In this document: piece after piece, positions 5,068 to 28,927 of the stretch
How the letters are laid out: every line of letters begins with the position of its first letter
How positions within the stretch are numbered: position 1 is the stretch's first letter
From: a virus
Length of the DNA: 31,459 bases
Reading direction: 5' to 3' (one strand)
IMG/VR virus record: IMGVR_UViG_3300031857_000876
Span: 1 to 31,459 of that record
The notes under the pieces: generated by a model
Seen by the model: the letters and a program-made list of their open reading frames with translations, nothing else
What the model was told of the DNA's origin: nothing
The model's database searches: none
Made by a program: the position numbers and the translations under genes

Positions 5068-6306
5068 CTACAGTTCCGACACGCCGGCCATCGTGCGTGC
5101 CTCTAGTAAAGCGAGTTTGAGCAGAGCGAGTTGGTCCCACACGTGCTCGGTGCCAGCTGGTGCACAAGTCTCACGCTGTCCTGACTTCGCGCTCTCATAA
5201 GCCTCTTTGCGAGTAGCGCCCTCGCGAATGTACTTGTTGAGCATCGTCGCCGAGCCCTGTGTGGTGGTGTTGTAGCGCATCTGCGCCACGTTCACCTGCA
5301 AGTTGCGAATGAGATCAGTCGTGCAAAGCAACACGTGCTCGGTGATAGCACACAGATCTGGTAGAGCAACGCGCTCGACAGATGAGTGGCTGATGTCGCG
5401 CTCGTGCCACAAGGCGATGCCCTCAGTTATGGGCATGACGTACGAGCGAGCAAGCCGCGCCAGTCCCGCGATTTTCTCTGAGGTAATCGGGTTCGCCTTG
5501 TGGGGCATAGATGACGAGCCTTGTTGCCCGGGAGCCTTCCCTTCAAACAGCTCCCTGACTTCATGACGCTGGCCGTGACGGATTTCAAGGGCGACCGCAT
5601 CACATATACTTACAAGGCTCGCCATCGCGTATGCCCAAGCGCCGAGTGAATCGCGCATCAGCACTTGGGTTGCGCTGTCGGGAGCATTGAGTTCGAGCGC
5701 CTTCGCCACGTCTAGCTCAACAGCTCGAGACACATGGGCATAGTTGCCCAGCGGCCCCGAAATATGAGCTGTCTGCACCCCCTCTGTCGTGACGATGATG
5801 CGCTCAAGCCCCCGGTTGACAGCAAAAGCAAAGTCGGCGACTCGGTAGCCCCAAGTTGTGGGCTCTGCGGCTTGACCGTGTGTCCTGCCAAGTCGAATCG
5901 TGTCGCGATATTCAAAAGCGTGGTCGATGAGAGCAACGAGTAGGTTGTAGCCCGCATTTAGCACTAGCCAGTTGGCTTGTGAGAGCAGAATCGCTTGACC
6001 GGTCTCCACAATGTCCGAGCTGGTCAAGCCGTAATGCAGCCAGCGGTGGATTTCGCGGTTGTCGGTGTTCTGACGCCATGCTTCAATGAAAGCCATAACG
6101 TCGTGCTTGAGGATTAGTTCCTCGTTGTGAACTTGCTGTGGTGTTGGCAGAACCGTGACATCAAGCGCTCGCCACAAGTCTTTCGGGACGATACCCCTTG
6201 CGCCCTGAGCTTTCATGACTTCGCATTCGACTCGGGCCCAAACGGCGTACTTGTTGGGTTCTGACCACACCGCGGCCATCTCATTTGATGTGTAGCGGTC
6301 TATCAT
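5068..6306 (-). CDS. purB: Adenylosuccinate lyase (phage-encoded)
   Basis: Catalyses fumarate release from SAICAR and from adenylosuccinate in purine synthesis. Length 412 aa, close to the roughly 430 of short bacterial PurB. Seen: N-terminus MIDRYTSNEMAAVWSE matching PurB; H68; TSSD at 95-98; RTHGQAAEPTTWG with the probable catalytic H143; SGPLGNY at 183-189; the superfamily signature GSSSMPHKANPITSEK at 263-278 with the loop serine near 264; WHERDISHSSVER at 300-312. No active-site block is missing. Position 271 is Ala where many PurB have Arg. The ATG at 6306 matches the family N-terminus and lies 6 bases after a -10 element with no ribosome site, so translation is probably leaderless. It opens the leftward early unit, divergent from the plus-strand operon. 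It acts in the cytoplasm as a homotetramer, as known for the family. Confidence 0.97.
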   Translation of the reverse strand: MIDRYTSNEMAAVWSEPNKYAVWARVECEVMKAQGARGIVPKDLWRALDVTVLPTPQQVHNEELILKHDVMAFIEAWRQNTDNREIHRWLHYGLTSSDIVETGQAILLSQANWLVLNAGYNLLVALIDHAFEYRDTIRLGRTHGQAAEPTTWGYRVADFAFAVNRGLERIIVTTEGVQTAHISGPLGNYAHVSRAVELDVAKALELNAPDSATQVLMRDSLGAWAYAMASLVSICDAVALEIRHGQRHEVRELFEGKAPGQQGSSSMPHKANPITSEKIAGLARLARSYVMPITEGIALWHERDISHSSVERVALPDLCAITEHVLLCTTDLIRNLQVNVAQMRYNTTTQGSATMLNKYIREGATRKEAYESAKSGQRETCAPAGTEHVWDQLALLKLALLEARTMAGVSEL

Positions 6307-6312
6307 GAGCGA

Positions 6313-6341
6313 AGTGTAACACACACTGACTATACAGCCAA
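6313..6341 (-). promoter_or_regulatory. Putative promoter for purB, leaderless
   Basis: Reading leftward: TTGGCT (6341-6336), a 17-base spacer, then TGT-TACACT with -10 TACACT at 6318-6313 preceded by an extended TG. The purB ATG follows after six bases, so transcription would begin at or next to its A. No Shine-Dalgarno sequence is present. Leaderless mRNAs are common in Actinobacteria. The elements match consensus 4 of 6 each. Confidence 0.6.
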
Positions 6342-6380
6342 GCGAAGGGTCAAGCCACCGGCGTGTCGTGTTGTGCTGTA

Positions 6381-6409
6381 TTGACACCGTAAATACGGTG
6401 TGGTTTAAT
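6381..6409 (+). promoter_or_regulatory. Promoter 1 of the plus-strand operon
   Basis: TTGACA at 6381-6386, a 17-base spacer and TTTAAT at 6404-6409 form a near-consensus sigma-70-type promoter. The predicted start of transcription, 7 bases after the -10, falls on the A of an ATG at 6416. An 18-bp palindrome fills the -35/spacer region. The same arrangement is repeated at 7126-7154. Confidence 0.85.
6384..6401. promoter_or_regulatory. Palindromic operator, copy 1
   Basis: ACACCGTAAATACGGTGT: perfect 8-bp arms around a central AA, lying inside promoter 1 from within the -35 hexamer through most of the spacer. A protein bound here would block RNA polymerase. The identical 18 bases recur in promoter 2. 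A likely binder is the ribbon-helix-helix protein at the end of the operon (inference). Confidence 0.8.
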
Positions 6410-6415
6410 TTCTGT

Positions 6416-6448
6416 ATGGACGGGGACGGACCCCGGACGGGAAGGTAA
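6416..6448 (+). CDS. Leaderless 10-residue leader peptide, copy 1
   Basis: ATG at the predicted +1, reading MDGDGPRTGR and stopping two bases before the ATG of the next gene. The GGGAAGG ribosome site of that gene lies inside the last codons. The frame is conserved in copy 2 (7161-7193) with one amino-acid change (P to L). It could be a regulatory upstream frame. It could also be only a by-product of the conserved hairpin and ribosome site. Confidence 0.45.
   Translation: MDGDGPRTGR
6421..6435 (+). promoter_or_regulatory. Leader RNA hairpin, copy 1
   Basis: CGGGG-ACGGA-CCCCG: 5-bp stem, 5-base loop, a few bases from the predicted 5' end of the transcript. In copy 2 the stem is CGGAG/CTCCG. 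The two differences between the 33-base leaders are exactly partner bases (G-C becomes A-U), which supports a selected RNA structure. Confidence 0.6.
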
Positions 6449-6450
6449 AA

Positions 6451-6690
6451 ATGGCAACAACACACAGAATCACCAACGTAATCAAGGTCGCTGAGTTCGC
6501 AGATCTTTACGAGTCATTTAGCACAATGGACAAGTCCCAAGCTTGCTACTGGCGCGTCATCGAGCTCATTCAGAAGCAGACCGAGGCCAAGCAGGCTAAG
6601 TGGTGGGCTTACTACGACGAGCGCCGCAACCGCGCTTATCAGGACGAGCTCACCAAGCGCCTCATCGAGGCCGAGAAGGCAGGTGCATAA
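6451..6690 (+). CDS. Hypothetical early protein (79 aa)
   Basis: First gene behind promoter 1, with GGGAAGG 6 bases before the ATG. Not recognised. Seen: mostly helical and highly charged. A Trp/Tyr-rich centre (ACYWRVIELIQKQTEAKQAKWWAYYDERR, roughly residues 30-58) is followed by an amphipathic end (LTKRLIEAEKAGA). No signal peptide, membrane segment or known motif. Small early phage proteins with this composition often bind host proteins, but no target can be named. The gene is followed after 2 bases by the next start. Confidence 0.8.
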   Translation: MATTHRITNVIKVAEFADLYESFSTMDKSQACYWRVIELIQKQTEAKQAKWWAYYDERRNRAYQDELTKRLIEAEKAGA

Positions 6691-6692
6691 CC

Positions 6693-6866
6693 GTGGGCGC
6701 GATGAAAGACCTTTGGATAGAGATCGACCAAGAGATGCACGATGTGAGCAAGTGGCTGGCCGACGCGGCCGAGACTCAAGACCCGGACGAGATGAAGTCC
6801 GCAATACGCGAGGGCATCGTGCACCTGCACATCGCGCTCGCCACCTTCGAGAGAGTGGGGTCGTGA
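6693..6866 (+). CDS. Hypothetical small acidic protein (57 aa)
   Basis: Not recognised. GTG at 6693 is preferred because AGGTG, a good match to the actinobacterial ribosome site, lies 7 bases upstream. An ATG at 6702 in the same frame is the alternative (54 aa). The product is helical and acidic (KDLWIEIDQEMHDVSKWLAD, then ETQDPDEMKSAIREGIVHLH). Its stop overlaps the next gene's start (GTGA). It belongs to the run of overlapping micro-genes. Confidence 0.75.
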   Translation: MGAMKDLWIEIDQEMHDVSKWLADAAETQDPDEMKSAIREGIVHLHIALATFERVGS

Positions 6867-6979
6867 GCTGCCAGCACACCTTCATCGAAGCACCACTCCG
6901 GACAGTCATCTTGTACAGTTGTACCAACTGCGAGGCTGTCTTTGTGGTGACGCCGACGGGGGTGTATGAGGGCCAATGA
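6863..6979 (+). CDS. Cys-containing micro-protein (38 aa)
   Basis: GTG start overlapping the previous stop (GTGA) and a stop overlapping the next ATG (ATGA). The product has C3, H5 and a CTNC knuckle at about 20-23 (VILYSCTNCEAVFVV) between two hydrophobic strands. This suggests a minimal zinc ribbon or half of one that could dimerise. Zinc binding is an inference from spacing. No known family is recognised. Confidence 0.65.
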   Translation: MSCQHTFIEAPLRTVILYSCTNCEAVFVVTPTGVYEGQ

Positions 6980-7137
6980 CACGCGAGTATTTCAAGGCAT
7001 TTCTGTCAGCTCGCTGCACCTTGGGCGACCACAAGCGTTGCACTCAAGTAGCCCACATGGGCGCATTCCCGAGTAGGCGCCGACCGTGCAGTTGCGACTG
7101 TCACGACACGCCGAGTGACGCTGTATTGACACCGTAA
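6976..7137 (+). CDS. Cys/His-rich micro-protein, putative zinc binder (53 aa)
   Basis: Seen: C14, H19, C22 and then C38-x-C40-x-C42-H43 in RRRPCSCDCHD. This C..H..C...CxCxCH pattern recurs in small proteins of actinobacterial phages. It suggests one tightly bound metal ion. The ATG overlaps the previous stop. The C-terminal end runs into promoter 2: its stop TAA is made from the operator bases CCGTAAATACGG, so coding and regulation overlap here. Function unknown. Confidence 0.7.
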   Translation: MTREYFKAFLSARCTLGDHKRCTQVAHMGAFPSRRRPCSCDCHDTPSDAVLTP

Positions 7138-7154
7138 ATACGGTGTGCTATGAT
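7126..7154 (+). promoter_or_regulatory. Promoter 2 of the plus-strand operon
   Basis: TTGACA at 7126-7131, 17-base spacer, TATGAT at 7149-7154, then six bases to an ATG at 7161. From GCTGTATTGACA through the operator, and again over TTCTGTATGGACGG, it is nearly identical to promoter 1. It lies partly inside the preceding coding frame and would give a second transcript of the distal genes. Confidence 0.85.
7129..7146. promoter_or_regulatory. Palindromic operator, copy 2
   Basis: Same 18-bp palindrome as at 6384-6401, base for base, in the same position relative to the -35 and -10 elements. Two identical sites 745 bp apart would allow coordinated, possibly loop-forming, repression. Confidence 0.8.
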
Positions 7155-7160
7155 TTCTGT

Positions 7161-7193
7161 ATGGACGGAGACGGACTCCGGACGGGAAGGTAA
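7161..7193 (+). CDS. Leaderless 10-residue leader peptide, copy 2
   Basis: Reads MDGDGLRTGR and stops two bases before the ATG of the next gene. It differs from copy 1 by one silent and one P-to-L change. Both changes fall in the hairpin stem and compensate each other, so the RNA rather than the peptide may be the conserved element. Confidence 0.45.
   Translation: MDGDGLRTGR
7166..7180 (+). promoter_or_regulatory. Leader RNA hairpin, copy 2
   Basis: CGGAG-ACGGA-CTCCG: same loop as copy 1, with one base pair switched from G-C to A-U. It lies close to the predicted 5' end of the transcript and directly before the ribosome site GGGAAGG. Confidence 0.6.
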
Positions 7194-7195
7194 AA

Positions 7196-7501
7196 ATGAA
7201 CGGAATCGCAACACAGACAGCACTACAGATCAACGAAGCAGTTGAGGTGGTAGTCAACCACTACCCAGTCAAGACTGCACCAAACGCATTTGGCGGCCAC
7301 GACCTTTGGGTGGATAGCTTGCAGAGAGGTCGCGTCACTCGCAACGGCGTTTGGCACTTGGTTGAGGGCGCTCGCGTTTGCACTGATGACAGCTCCATTA
7401 CCGTCATGAAGTTTGAGCGCAGCGGCGTTGCTAGCAGGGTCACATTTGAGGGCACCATCTCGGTTGATTTGCTCGTAGCCGCCATCAAGGCGCTCCTCTA
7501 A
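7196..7501 (+). CDS. Hypothetical protein (101 aa)
   Basis: First gene behind promoter 2, with GGGAAGG 6 bases before the ATG. Not recognised. Seen: an N-terminal helix (QTALQINEAVEVVV), a strand-rich centre with alternating polar and hydrophobic residues (DLWVDSLQRGRVTRNGVWHLVEG, then SSITVMKFERSG, ASRVTFEGTISV) and a C-terminal helix (DLLVAAIKALL). This looks like a compact alpha/beta domain, perhaps a small beta sheet capped by helices. No catalytic motif or membrane segment. It overlaps the next gene by one base (TAATG). Confidence 0.8.
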   Translation: MNGIATQTALQINEAVEVVVNHYPVKTAPNAFGGHDLWVDSLQRGRVTRNGVWHLVEGARVCTDDSSITVMKFERSGVASRVTFEGTISVDLLVAAIKALL

Positions 7502-7632
7502 TGAGCTACCGAAGCGACGAGTGGCACTGGGTCTGTTACAAGTGCGGCGAGCGATTCGACCGCAGCAGCGAATGGCAAATGAGCCTTATCGATAATCACA
7601 TGGAGCACCACAAGCAATTGGAGACACGATGA
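7501..7632 (+). CDS. Putative C2H2-type zinc-finger micro-protein (43 aa)
   Basis: Seen: C12-x2-C15 in VCYKCGERF, then a helix ending in H33 and H36/H37 (LIDNHMEHHK). The spacing C-x2-C-x17-H-x3-4-H with an aromatic after the second Cys is like a classical zinc finger with a slightly long middle. Such proteins may bind DNA or host proteins. The ATG overlaps the previous stop by one base and the stop overlaps the next start. Zinc binding is inferred. Confidence 0.7.
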   Translation: MSYRSDEWHWVCYKCGERFDRSSEWQMSLIDNHMEHHKQLETR

Positions 7633-7799
7633 ATACCAAGCAAATGCCGAACACCGGCGCATGGCAGGTGTCAGCGACGGTGTCGAACGGCCACCACGAG
7701 TGGCTCGAGTTTTCAACGTTTTACGGTGTGCCCGAGAAAGAGGCCATCGCTCGCTTTATCAACGCGGTACACTCCGCAGGTTGGACGGTGATAGAATGA
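7629..7799 (+). CDS. Hypothetical protein (56 aa)
   Basis: ATGA overlaps on both sides mark it as part of the coupled run. Not recognised. Seen: two or three strands (GAWQVSATVSNGHHEWLEFSTF) followed by one helix (PEKEAIARFINAVHSAGW) and a last strand (TVIE). A beta-beta-alpha-beta micro-domain is plausible. No metal-binding set or membrane segment. Confidence 0.75.
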   Translation: MNTKQMPNTGAWQVSATVSNGHHEWLEFSTFYGVPEKEAIARFINAVHSAGWTVIE

Positions 7800-7951
7800 A
7801 GCTAAGCACACAACAGAATGCAGAGCTCAAGAAGCTCATGGACTGGCACTTGCACCAAGCATCTGAATGCCGCAGTGCCGATGATATCGGCGAGCGCGAC
7901 TTTCACACTTGGGCTGCCATGCTGATCTCAGTAGTTAGGCAGACACGATGA
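7796..7951 (+). CDS. Hypothetical helical protein (51 aa)
   Basis: Starts within the previous stop (ATGA) and ends within the next start. The product (MKLSTQQNAELKKLMDWHLH, then ASECRSADDIGERDFHTWAAMLISVVRQ) is predicted fully helical, probably a helical hairpin. Not recognised. No sequence feature points to a specific role. Confidence 0.75.
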   Translation: MKLSTQQNAELKKLMDWHLHQASECRSADDIGERDFHTWAAMLISVVRQTR

Positions 7952-8097
7952 AGCTGACGAAACGCGGCAAGCGCGTTCGCGCTGTGCTCATTTTGGCTGG
8001 TATAATAGCCTTGTATTACATCTCAACACACTTGTGGTGGACTGGCACCGGCTACTGCTGGGGCACAGGCACCGAATGCCTACTGGGGGGCCTATAA
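7948..8097 (+). CDS. Small membrane protein (49 aa)
   Basis: Seen: basic N-terminus (KLTKRGKRVR), one transmembrane helix (about residues 12-31, AVLILAGIIALYYISTHLWW), then an outside segment with two cysteines in GYCWGTGTECLLGG that may form a disulfide. Positive-inside charge puts the N-terminus in the cytoplasm. Small single-span proteins are common in early phage operons. A role in superinfection exclusion or membrane modification is possible but unproven. A candidate internal promoter lies inside this gene. Confidence 0.75.
   Translation: MKLTKRGKRVRAVLILAGIIALYYISTHLWWTGTGYCWGTGTECLLGGL
7998..8006 (+). promoter_or_regulatory. Possible internal extended -10 promoter for the regulator gene
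   Basis: TGG-TATAAT is a perfect extended -10 element about 92 bases before the ATG of the ribbon-helix-helix gene. No good -35 stands 17 bases upstream, which an extended -10 can tolerate. It also encodes Gly-Ile-Ile of the membrane protein, so chance is possible. Confidence 0.35.
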
Positions 8098-8235
8098 ATG
8101 AGTAACCAAACACCGATTCGCACTGTGCGTGTCCCGTCGAAGTTGTGGACTAAGGCAAAAGCCAAAGCCAAGCGCGACAACACCACCGTCTCTGAAGTCA
8201 TCAACAAAGCACTGGAGTCTTACACGCAGAAATAG
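8098..8235 (+). CDS. Ribbon-helix-helix DNA-binding protein (45 aa)
   Basis: Arc/MetJ/CopG-type regulator. Seen: an N-terminal beta strand (PIRTVRVP, residues 6-13) with alternating residues for major-groove reading, helix A (SKLWTKAKAKAKRD, about 14-27), a TTVS turn starting helix B (SEVINKALESYTQ, about 32-44). The length is that of a minimal RHH domain, which dimerises and binds palindromic sites. It is the last gene before the terminator, starting directly after the previous stop. The two identical palindromes in the operon's promoters are natural candidate operators, so autorepression is the simplest model (inference). Confidence 0.85.
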   Translation: MSNQTPIRTVRVPSKLWTKAKAKAKRDNTTVSEVINKALESYTQK

Positions 8236-8241
8236 CGATTT

Positions 8242-8277
8242 GCCCCCACCACTGTCTACCTTTCCAGTGGTGGGGGC
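8242..8277 (+). terminator. Strong hairpin terminator between convergent genes
   Basis: GCCCCCACCACTG, a 10-base loop, then CAGTGGTGGGGGC: a perfect 13-bp stem just after the plus-strand operon and just past the end of the leftward late operon. Neither side has a long U-run (GTCTCTTGCT rightward, AAATCGCTATTT leftward). It probably acts in both directions. Confidence 0.85.
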
Positions 8278-8288
8278 GTCTCTTGCTG

Positions 8289-8882
8289 CTATCTAATAGC
8301 CCAGCCGTAGTCTACAAACCGGTTTTCGATGTCTGAGTAGCTGGCCCTTTGACCTACCAACGATGGCCAAGCCGCGTAGGCTCGCACCTTGGGGAGCACT
8401 TTGCTGTAGGTCAAATCAACCGGCCAGCGGTCGTCGCTAGCTGCTTGAATCAGGGTGTCATACAACTCGGCTTTGACACCGTAGGCGTGAGTCGTCAGCG
8501 AGCCGTCGGTTTTGCGCAGTCCTTCAACGCCGATATCAACCGGCAAAAAAGTATTCGAGCCAAGATAGAACATCTGCCAGTCCTCGGGCAACTTGGACAC
8601 GAGCTCGCTGAAGTTGGCGGTGAAACTGTGCCCAAACTCGGCGTCGTCCTCTAAGATGAGCAGACGTTGCACGCCGGCTGCTTTGGCATCTTCTATCACG
8701 AAACGGTGGCTGGTGGCGCAAGCCGCGATGTTGGATATGCCTAAAGCCTTGGCATCAACTGCGCTGTAACGCACAAAGTCAATGCCAAGGCTCTTGGTCT
8801 GTTTCTTTAGCTCTGCCAGTCTGTCCTGTCGCCTGTCAAGGTTGATGACAACGACGCGGTCGAAAAACTCGTTGAGCTTCAC
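8289..8882 (-). CDS. Glycosyltransferase family 25-like protein (197 aa)
   Basis: Seen: VVVINLDRRQDRLAEL at the N-terminus (typical start of GT25/LPS-type glycosyltransferases), FVRYSAVDAK, the acidic LLILEDDAEFG (about residues 73-83) that would hold the metal and nucleotide sugar, then DWQMFYLGS. These are the family's hallmarks in the right order. The family transfers sugars to lipopolysaccharide or to collagen-type proteins. It is the last gene of the leftward late operon, after the lysis genes, and starts with GTG without a clear ribosome site. A role in glycosylating virion proteins or altering the host surface is inferred. Confidence 0.88.
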   Translation of the reverse strand: MKLNEFFDRVVVINLDRRQDRLAELKKQTKSLGIDFVRYSAVDAKALGISNIAACATSHRFVIEDAKAAGVQRLLILEDDAEFGHSFTANFSELVSKLPEDWQMFYLGSNTFLPVDIGVEGLRKTDGSLTTHAYGVKAELYDTLIQAASDDRWPVDLTYSKVLPKVRAYAAWPSLVGQRASYSDIENRFVDYGWAIR

Positions 8883-25282: not shown

Positions 25283-25558
25283 CTATGCTCCGCCACAGTC
25301 AATGGCTGTCAAACCGCCGTAAGTGCTTGTTGCATTTCCGCCGTCAATATTGATGTAGGCCGCGCCAGTGGCTCCTGTTGCGCCTGTTGCGCCACTTGGG
25401 CCTGTTGCTCCAGTTGCACCTGTCGCACCGACAGGGCCTGTTGCGCCAGTGGCACCAGCACCGGTCGGTCCGGTTGCACCGGTTGGTCCGACTGGGCCTT
25501 GCTTGCCAACGACAGCGTAAACCCACGCTGTGCCGTCCCAATACTTTATTGTGGCCAT
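25283..25558 (-). CDS. Collagen-like small fibre protein (91 aa)
   Basis: Seen: N-terminus [20 protein letters not shown] (a short beta module seen in phage fibres: [10 protein letters not shown]), collagen-like Gly-x-y from about 20 to 67 ([20 protein letters not shown] and similar), then [20 protein letters not shown] at the end. Probably a trimeric spike. The ATG is one base from the stop of the upstream gene. Confidence 0.85.

Positions 25559-25729: not shown

Positions 25730-25730
<1 letters not shown>
25560..25730 (-). CDS. Small fibre accessory protein (56 aa)
   Basis: Too small to recognise with certainty. ATG overlaps the fibre gene stop (TAATG). Seen: [20 protein letters not shown], then [20 protein letters not shown]. 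The YxxYLxWxxNP segment is common in small proteins encoded just after phage fibre genes, often listed as fibre assembly helpers. Acidic and likely soluble. Confidence 0.7.

Positions 25731-28919
<3,189 letters not shown>

Positions 28920-28927
<8 letters not shown>

Follow-up and report, generated by a model that had tools for sequence, protein, structure and literature searches.

Repeated SigA promoters are known in the cluster K mycobacteriophages, where they carry an inverted repeat (ESAS) and a start-associated sequence (SAS) (PMC3203893; PMC11373665). The phages named with ESAS/SAS are Anaya, TM4, Pixie, and Adephagia (PMC3203893, PMC11373665, PMC12699233). The module has been known since 2011, and its role is still described as unclear. 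Herein, a promoter-operator-leader cassette is described that is present twice in a 31,459-base IMG/VR virus record with a GC content of 54% (the whole record is called the window). In the original prediction, which was made from this DNA alone, the cassettes could not be matched to a described system. The cluster K ESAS/SAS module is, however, comparable (PMC3203893; PMC11373665).

Both modules have repeated intergenic SigA-like promoters with 17-18 bp spacing and an imperfect inverted repeat. Both place a conserved ribosome-site element before unrelated small genes, outside the structural module, in an actinophage. The ESAS repeat consensus differs between subclusters, as the repeat does here. 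The 13-nt SAS of cluster K, GGGATAGGAGCCC, folds with the Shine-Dalgarno in the loop, like the GCTCAGGAAGGAGC leaders of the present family. The SAS 5'-GGGATAGGAGCCC at L091 1746-1758 is a GGG/CCC mini-hairpin. The differences lie in the geometry. ESAS is a pair of 15-17-bp imperfect inverted repeats with a variable spacer, whereas the cassettes here have one dyad of 10-18 bp or a pair of 8-bp boxes. Unlike in ESAS, the core site is placed between the -35 and the -10, and a short hairpin begins 2-9 nt away from the 5' end. The copy number is 1-4 here and 7 ESAS in Adephagia, and a relative of the ribbon-helix-helix (RHH) protein of this operon was not found in Adephagia. The SAS GGGATAGGAGCCC (up to 2 mismatches, 3-9 bp before start codons) is absent from the 42 leaders of the family, which were read directly and carry GGAAGG-type sites and other hairpins. 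Judged by sequence, the cassette module is a variant that would work like ESAS/SAS and is not a member of it, differing in sequence and repeat geometry. To the cluster K question, this family adds a linked candidate regulator and natural gain and loss pairs.

The nearest solved relative of the RHH protein is the omega repressor of pSM19035 (1irq/2bnw), whose KTVRV strand matches RTVRV here. Omega dimers bind 7-bp repeats, direct or inverted, over promoters including that of their own gene (PMC9499535). The omega sites consist of 7-10 contiguous 7-bp repeats (WATCACW), whereas the site here is either a single dyad or a pair of boxes spaced by 11 bp. Omega has a further role in plasmid partition; the scan of the window proteins revealed no partition gene. 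Arc of phage P22 and AvtR of an archaeal virus are also small viral RHH regulators, with similarity at the family or fold level only. In phiC31, conserved inverted repeats at actinophage early promoters are the reiterated operator for the phage repressor. That repressor is a different and larger protein than the RHH protein here, and phiC31 is temperate. Stem-loops at the 5' end of the mRNA, upstream of the Shine-Dalgarno, are present in T7 class III leaders and in T4 gene 32, which are unrelated to the present cassettes in sequence and host.

Two cassettes in a small-gene operon

One 79-nt direct repeat is present in the window, with copies that are 745 bp apart and 94% identical. The elements of the two cassettes stand in a common order, as the original prediction described it (Table 1). 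The promoter-operator string TTGACACCGTAAATACGGTGT occurs exactly twice in the window, at 6381 and 7126, which agrees with the claim of an identical operator in both copies. This string is expected 0 times in 100 dinucleotide shuffles, even when 3 mismatches are allowed, and the leader string likewise had no chance occurrence in shuffled sequence. The operator had been presented as an 18-bp perfect palindrome. The dyad is indeed found at both sites, but it is not perfect: two perfect 8-bp arms surround a non-complementary AA (2 mismatches against the other strand). The spacer from -35 to -10 is 17 in both cassettes. Six bases lie between the -10 and the predicted start A6416 or A7161 in each copy, and TAAAAATG comes after GGGAAGG. 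A MerR-type spacer operator, which has a 19-20 bp spacer, was considered and rejected, since the spacer here is 17 or 18. No MerR domain was found among the window proteins scanned.

The ten-gene operon, with four tiny genes between the two copies and an RHH gene at the end, is arranged as originally described. Genes 1 and 5 had no match in a tblastn search against annotated phages. The gene 1 homologue in L005 (113 aa) has a mid insertion of ~34 residues with two CxxC pairs and is zinc-ribbon-like.

An exact search for the promoter-operator string retrieved one contig. It belongs to a sister phage that shares the two cassettes but not the second small gene. In the gene 2 swap, window 6693-6866 stands against L003 387-638, and the flanks are otherwise nearly identical. 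The cassettes may act as exchange points for small genes. It is very improbable, however, that the copies are merely a recent duplication or a recombination junction for small-gene swaps, with no special regulation. The window copies are closer to each other (0.93) than to those of other phages, the same is true for L020 (0.99), and the gene between the copies has been replaced in the sister phage, all of which would fit such an origin. Against it, the cassettes are kept across phages whose RHH proteins share as little as 57% identity and whose genes behind the cassettes are unrelated, and the core columns are invariant while the neighbouring columns drift. Swap points and regulatory units are compatible, and both can be true. 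The cassettes mark modular slots for unrelated tiny early genes and are thus of help in the search for genes of host takeover or anti-defence in uncultured actinophages.

Table 1 Features of the window cassettes, the small-gene operon, and related loci.
Feature	Position	Strand	Remark
Cassette 1, whole repeat unit	6375..6453	+	copy of the 79-nt direct repeat; 94% identity with cassette 2
-35 TTGACA, cassette 1	6381..6386	+	sequence; TTGACA or TTGACG in 42/42 family cassettes
Operator 1 (predicted), ACACCGTA-AA-TACGGTGT	6384..6401	+	core CGTAAATACG at 6388-6397
-10 TTTAAT, cassette 1	6404..6409	+	TG one base upstream (extended -10)
Predicted transcription start, cassette 1	6416	+	A of ATGG; position predicted from 42 cassettes
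5' hairpin 1, CGGGG-ACGGA-CCCCG	6421..6435	+	-11.8 kcal/mol, z -1.8
Shine-Dalgarno GGGAAGG, cassette 1	6439..6445	+	sequence; GGAAGG-type in relatives
Gene 1, 79 aa, no assigned function	6451..6690	+	homologues in L004, L005, L067, L068
Gene 2, about 57 aa	6693..6866	+	unrelated 83-aa gene in its place in sister phage
Gene 3, about 38 aa	6863..6979	+	sequence
Gene 4, 53 aa	6976..7137	+	stop codon inside operator 2
Cassette 2, whole repeat unit	7120..7198	+	79-nt direct repeat
-35 TTGACA, cassette 2	7126..7131	+	sequence
Operator 2 (predicted)	7129..7146	+	identical to operator 1
-10 TATGAT, cassette 2	7149..7154	+	extended -10
Predicted transcription start, cassette 2	7161	+	position predicted from 42 cassettes
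5' hairpin 2, CGGAG-ACGGA-CTCCG	7166..7180	+	-9.7 kcal/mol, z -2.5
Shine-Dalgarno GGGAAGG, cassette 2	7184..7190	+	sequence
Gene 5, 101 aa, no assigned function	7196..7501	+	similar genes behind cassettes in L010, L013, L025, L026, L027
Genes 6-8 (43, 56, 51 aa)	7501..7951	+	starts and stops overlap
Gene 9, 49-aa membrane protein MKLTKRGKRVRAV..	7948..8097	+	homologue directly upstream of RHH, e.g. L006
Gene 10, 45-aa ribbon-helix-helix protein	8098..8235	+	candidate repressor of both cassettes
Long stem after operon	8243-8276		between convergent transcription units; -29.5 kcal/mol, z -6.6
purB (adenylosuccinate lyase)	5068-6306	minus	left arm of window
PurZ0-like adenylosuccinate synthetase	L092 878-1912; L094 1821-2855		in relatives

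Conservation of the core site and of the 5' hairpin

Relatives were gathered with the phage PurB as the query. This gave 24 contigs with a PurB identity of 62-99% (L004-L027) and one additional fragment with 71% (L028). Cassettes were found by reading upstream of purB and by pattern and profile scans. The profile search gave 48 matches above 36 bits, and 42 distinct full cassettes were left after duplicate removal. Because they are related by descent, the 42 cassettes are not 42 independent events. Each phage has 1-4 cassettes, always in the small-gene operon, in one cluster and on one strand, and the genes behind them are mostly unrelated to each other. The pattern TTGACA-N(1-2)-CGTA-N3-AC had 45 exact matches in 29 of the 33 related records, most of which are fragments, and the reversed control pattern had 0. 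The expected conservation in related phages is thereby confirmed, and the distribution of the pattern indicates that the cassette module is widespread in about thirty related uncultured viruses of actinobacteria.

Within the core, C is present in 40 of the 42 cassettes, and GTA and AC are present in all 42. Spacer columns 11 and 12, next to the core, hold almost no information. In L010 and L022, a 1-bp insertion lies between the -35 and the core, and the core is intact though shifted. The purB promoters of the same phages have a comparable -10 and mostly a comparable -35 too, and CGTA-N3-AC is found in none of ten. The absence of the core from these promoters (10/10) indicates that the core is a site separate from the promoter. 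A near-complete long dyad is limited to the window clade and L020. In most relatives, the site reads as a pair of GTATNNAC boxes at a distance of 11 bp, with GTATTGAC covering the -35 and GTATNNAC in the spacer, and in some (L016, L018) the two boxes are identical. The dyad and the tandem-box readings both fit, and box 1 is partly the -35 itself. The 18-bp palindrome is thus read as the best-developed form, found in the window clade, of a site whose conserved unit is CGTA-N3-AC.

The purB promoter of the window (6306-6345, minus strand) has its -10 six bases before the ATG. The same spacing is kept in all divergently arranged relatives (L008, L011, L014, L016, L018, L019, and L020). This spacing makes leaderless translation of purB probable. 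In L006, L007, L009, L010, L012, L013, L015, L017, L021-L023, and L025-L027, the operon is inverted relative to purB. The RHH gene in these records is upstream of purB on the same strand, replacing the divergent cassette 1.

A hairpin was found in 42/42 leaders, and its first pair is 2-9 nt from the predicted 5' end when the conserved A is taken as the start. Unrelated hairpins occupy this leader position: CGGGGA-NNN-TCCCCG, CCCGAAAGGG, GCCCAGAAAGGGC, and GCTC-AGGAAG-GAGC. In the GCTC-AGGAAG-GAGC class, which is a minority of the leaders, the Shine-Dalgarno is within the hairpin loop. In the largest hairpin class, two of the six pairs have double changes (G-C to A-U), with 0 in all slid controls. 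All leader differences between the two window copies preserve the stem, and a G-C pair of hairpin 1 is an A-U pair in hairpin 2. The hairpin stability relative to dinucleotide shuffles is modest (mean z -1.0 across the family); mononucleotide shuffles overstated the significance.

A leaderless ATG had been regarded as a designed element of the cassette. This part of the original prediction is not supported, since the start-site ATG is present in 7 of the 42 cassettes and the encoded peptide is not kept. The other 35 cassettes have ATA, ACA, or ATT, and the relatives mostly have ATAAG at the predicted start position. No leader peptide is conserved, because ATG occurs in only 7/42, and the start-site reading frame in the window clade is probably a by-product. 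In leader-peptide control, ribosomes would read a leaderless 10-codon frame, MDGDG(P/L)RTGR*, and this translation would govern the hairpin or the downstream gene. The ATG at the predicted start in both window copies, L004, one L005 copy, and L020 would suit it, and so would the probable leaderless start of purB in these phages. However, the peptide and the reading length vary, L020 has no stop ahead of the gene start, and the sequence changes preserve the stem and not the peptide. Such control was rejected on the low count of start codons at the predicted transcript 5' end, and it is the least probable of the readings considered here.

The ribbon-helix-helix protein and the proposed repression

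Gene 10 has an Arc-like PHROG match (7e-10). In the profile comparison with solved structures, the omega repressor 1irq (2.2e-6) was followed by AvtR (0.03). Pfam RHH_1 gave sub-cut-off matches only, and only for some members of the family. The AlphaFold monomer (pLDDT 82) has two helices and no strand, and all Foldseek matches of the model are above E 0.1; therefore, the RHH identity rests mainly on the profiles. The size of the RHH proteins across the relatives is 43-48 aa. The DNA-reading strand TP(I/V)R(T/S)VRV is kept in all 17 aligned proteins.

The RHH gene is the last gene of the operon in 22/22 records that reach the operon end. The 7 cassette-bearing records with no RHH gene stop 0.1-1.7 kb past a cassette. 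Arthrobacter phage MrSmee is the only annotated phage with a homologous RHH protein at E<=1e-3, and the RHH gene ends its operon there as well. The head of the MrSmee operon is TTGACT-ACAGTGTATATACACCC-TAGAGT, with a 12-bp palindrome and a GTATATAC box. This unannotated promoter (L088 4376-4446) lies directly after the integrase gene and has a 17-bp spacer, and its 12-bp palindrome, GTGTATATACAC, is probably the RHH operator. Neither such an RHH protein nor such a promoter was found in Hum25 and Pitbull, the neighbours of MrSmee. In contig L067, gene 1, a small membrane gene, and a 5' hairpin are kept, and the promoter-operator and the RHH gene are absent; L067 is a fragment, and the RHH absence there is based on the RHH search of the records and on the open reading frame list. 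These comparisons are small in number and rest in part on fragments; they support the pairing of the RHH protein with the site but do not prove it.

We consider it likely that the cassettes are sigma-A-type early promoters repressed by the RHH product of their own operon, with a 5' hairpin leader that protects or tunes the mRNA. From the sequences, we infer where transcription starts, that the RHH protein binds and represses, and what the hairpin does, as follows. Each cassette would be a strong early promoter for the host RNA polymerase and its primary sigma factor (TTGACA, 17-18 bp, extended -10). The repressor site, with its core CGTA-N3-AC, would overlap the -35 and the spacer, so that a bound protein would exclude the polymerase. 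Accumulating RHH dimers would bind side by side on the promoters, and the 11-base box spacing, which is one helical turn, would suit neighbouring dimers. As the RHH gene is the last in the operon, repression would be delayed and would then shut all cassettes at once. In effect, negative feedback would limit the expression of the early micro-genes to a pulse. Each transcript would begin at the conserved A, and the hairpin would form within the first 10 nt, just 5' of the Shine-Dalgarno. Its most likely roles there are to shield the 5' end of the mRNA and to keep the ribosome site spaced or accessible, which is the least certain step. An early-gene shut-off is preferred over a lysogeny switch because no integrase, either tyrosine or serine recombinase, was found in 16 records of up to 35 kb. 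The compact self-repressed system of the original prediction is thus retained in the form of reiterated promoter-operator-leader units on a tiny-gene operon, with the terminal RHH protein as the likely autorepressor.

The spacer site could also be read by another regulator, either a host factor or an unrecognised phage protein, while the RHH protein controls something else or activates. No family was assigned to several of the small operon proteins, and as most records are fragments, further regulators may lie outside of them. This reading is nevertheless judged unlikely. Of the 20 window gene products scanned, none apart from the RHH protein was recognised as a DNA-binding regulator. Every informative record has it together with the cassettes, and L067, Hum25, and Pitbull lack both. 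Repression is favoured by the layout, in which the site lies over the core of a complete sigma-A promoter. In cellular genomes, the core pattern was found in only 4 contigs, from unrelated phyla, as chance would give. For a family with no known cultured phage, the cassettes supply a defined site, a 45-aa candidate regulator, and a leader element, which lend themselves to work with synthetic DNA.

Genome setting and predicted 2-aminoadenine DNA

The source of the window is a tailed actinophage. Its terminase matches those of actinobacterial phages, with Arthrobacter phage Hum25 as the best match (43% identity). The minus-strand left arm encodes a Prim-Pol/AAA replication protein, a PD-(D/E)XK nuclease, and the adenylosuccinate lyase PurB. 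The small-gene operon (6375-8235, plus strand) is divergent from purB and convergent with the genes to its right. The long stem after the operon has no U tract and is a putative terminator. In the DNA search against annotated phages, the operon region had no near relatives, and two matches were found elsewhere, from about 8.9 kb on. No known RNA family was found in the window by Rfam at gathering scores.

Nine relatives, including the sister with 99% PurB identity, encode a PurZ-like protein. Among solved structures, the PurZ0 of Gordonia phage Archimedes is the closest to it (7vf6, 7.5e-83), and the GSEGKG motif is present. In the relatives, purZ is followed by nucleoside deoxyribosyltransferase and dUTPase genes. 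According to the sister alignment, purZ would start about 420 bp past the left end of the window and thus outside of it. If it does, the adenines of the cassette promoters and operators would be 2-aminoadenine in the virion. The set of PurZ0, deoxyribosyltransferase, and dUTPase marks the PurZ0-type 2-aminoadenine phages (PMC12884076). A DatZ-type HD domain (PF13023) was searched and not found. Since the PurZ0 set occurs with the phage PurB and Prim-Pol, 2-aminoadenine genomes are predicted for this uncultured family, and the family probably has them.

A tentative proposal is that the cassettes constitute a reiterated regulon, under a single tiny omega-like RHH protein, in phages with 2-aminoadenine (Z) in place of adenine. 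If it is true, the host polymerase would have to start early transcription on Z:T promoters. The repressor would read the major groove, where Z looks like A, and the modification would make no difference to it. The design of early expression in a Z-genome phage would then consist of the near-consensus -35, the extended -10, and the 5' hairpin leaders.

Other genes of the window were noted as well. A glycosyltransferase family 25 gene (8289-8882, minus strand) lies directly past the closing stem of the operon. A 1065-aa collagen-like protein with GATGPTG repeats, probably a tail fibre, is encoded at 25730-28927 on the minus strand, and the adjoining reading frame at 25283-25558 has the same repeats.
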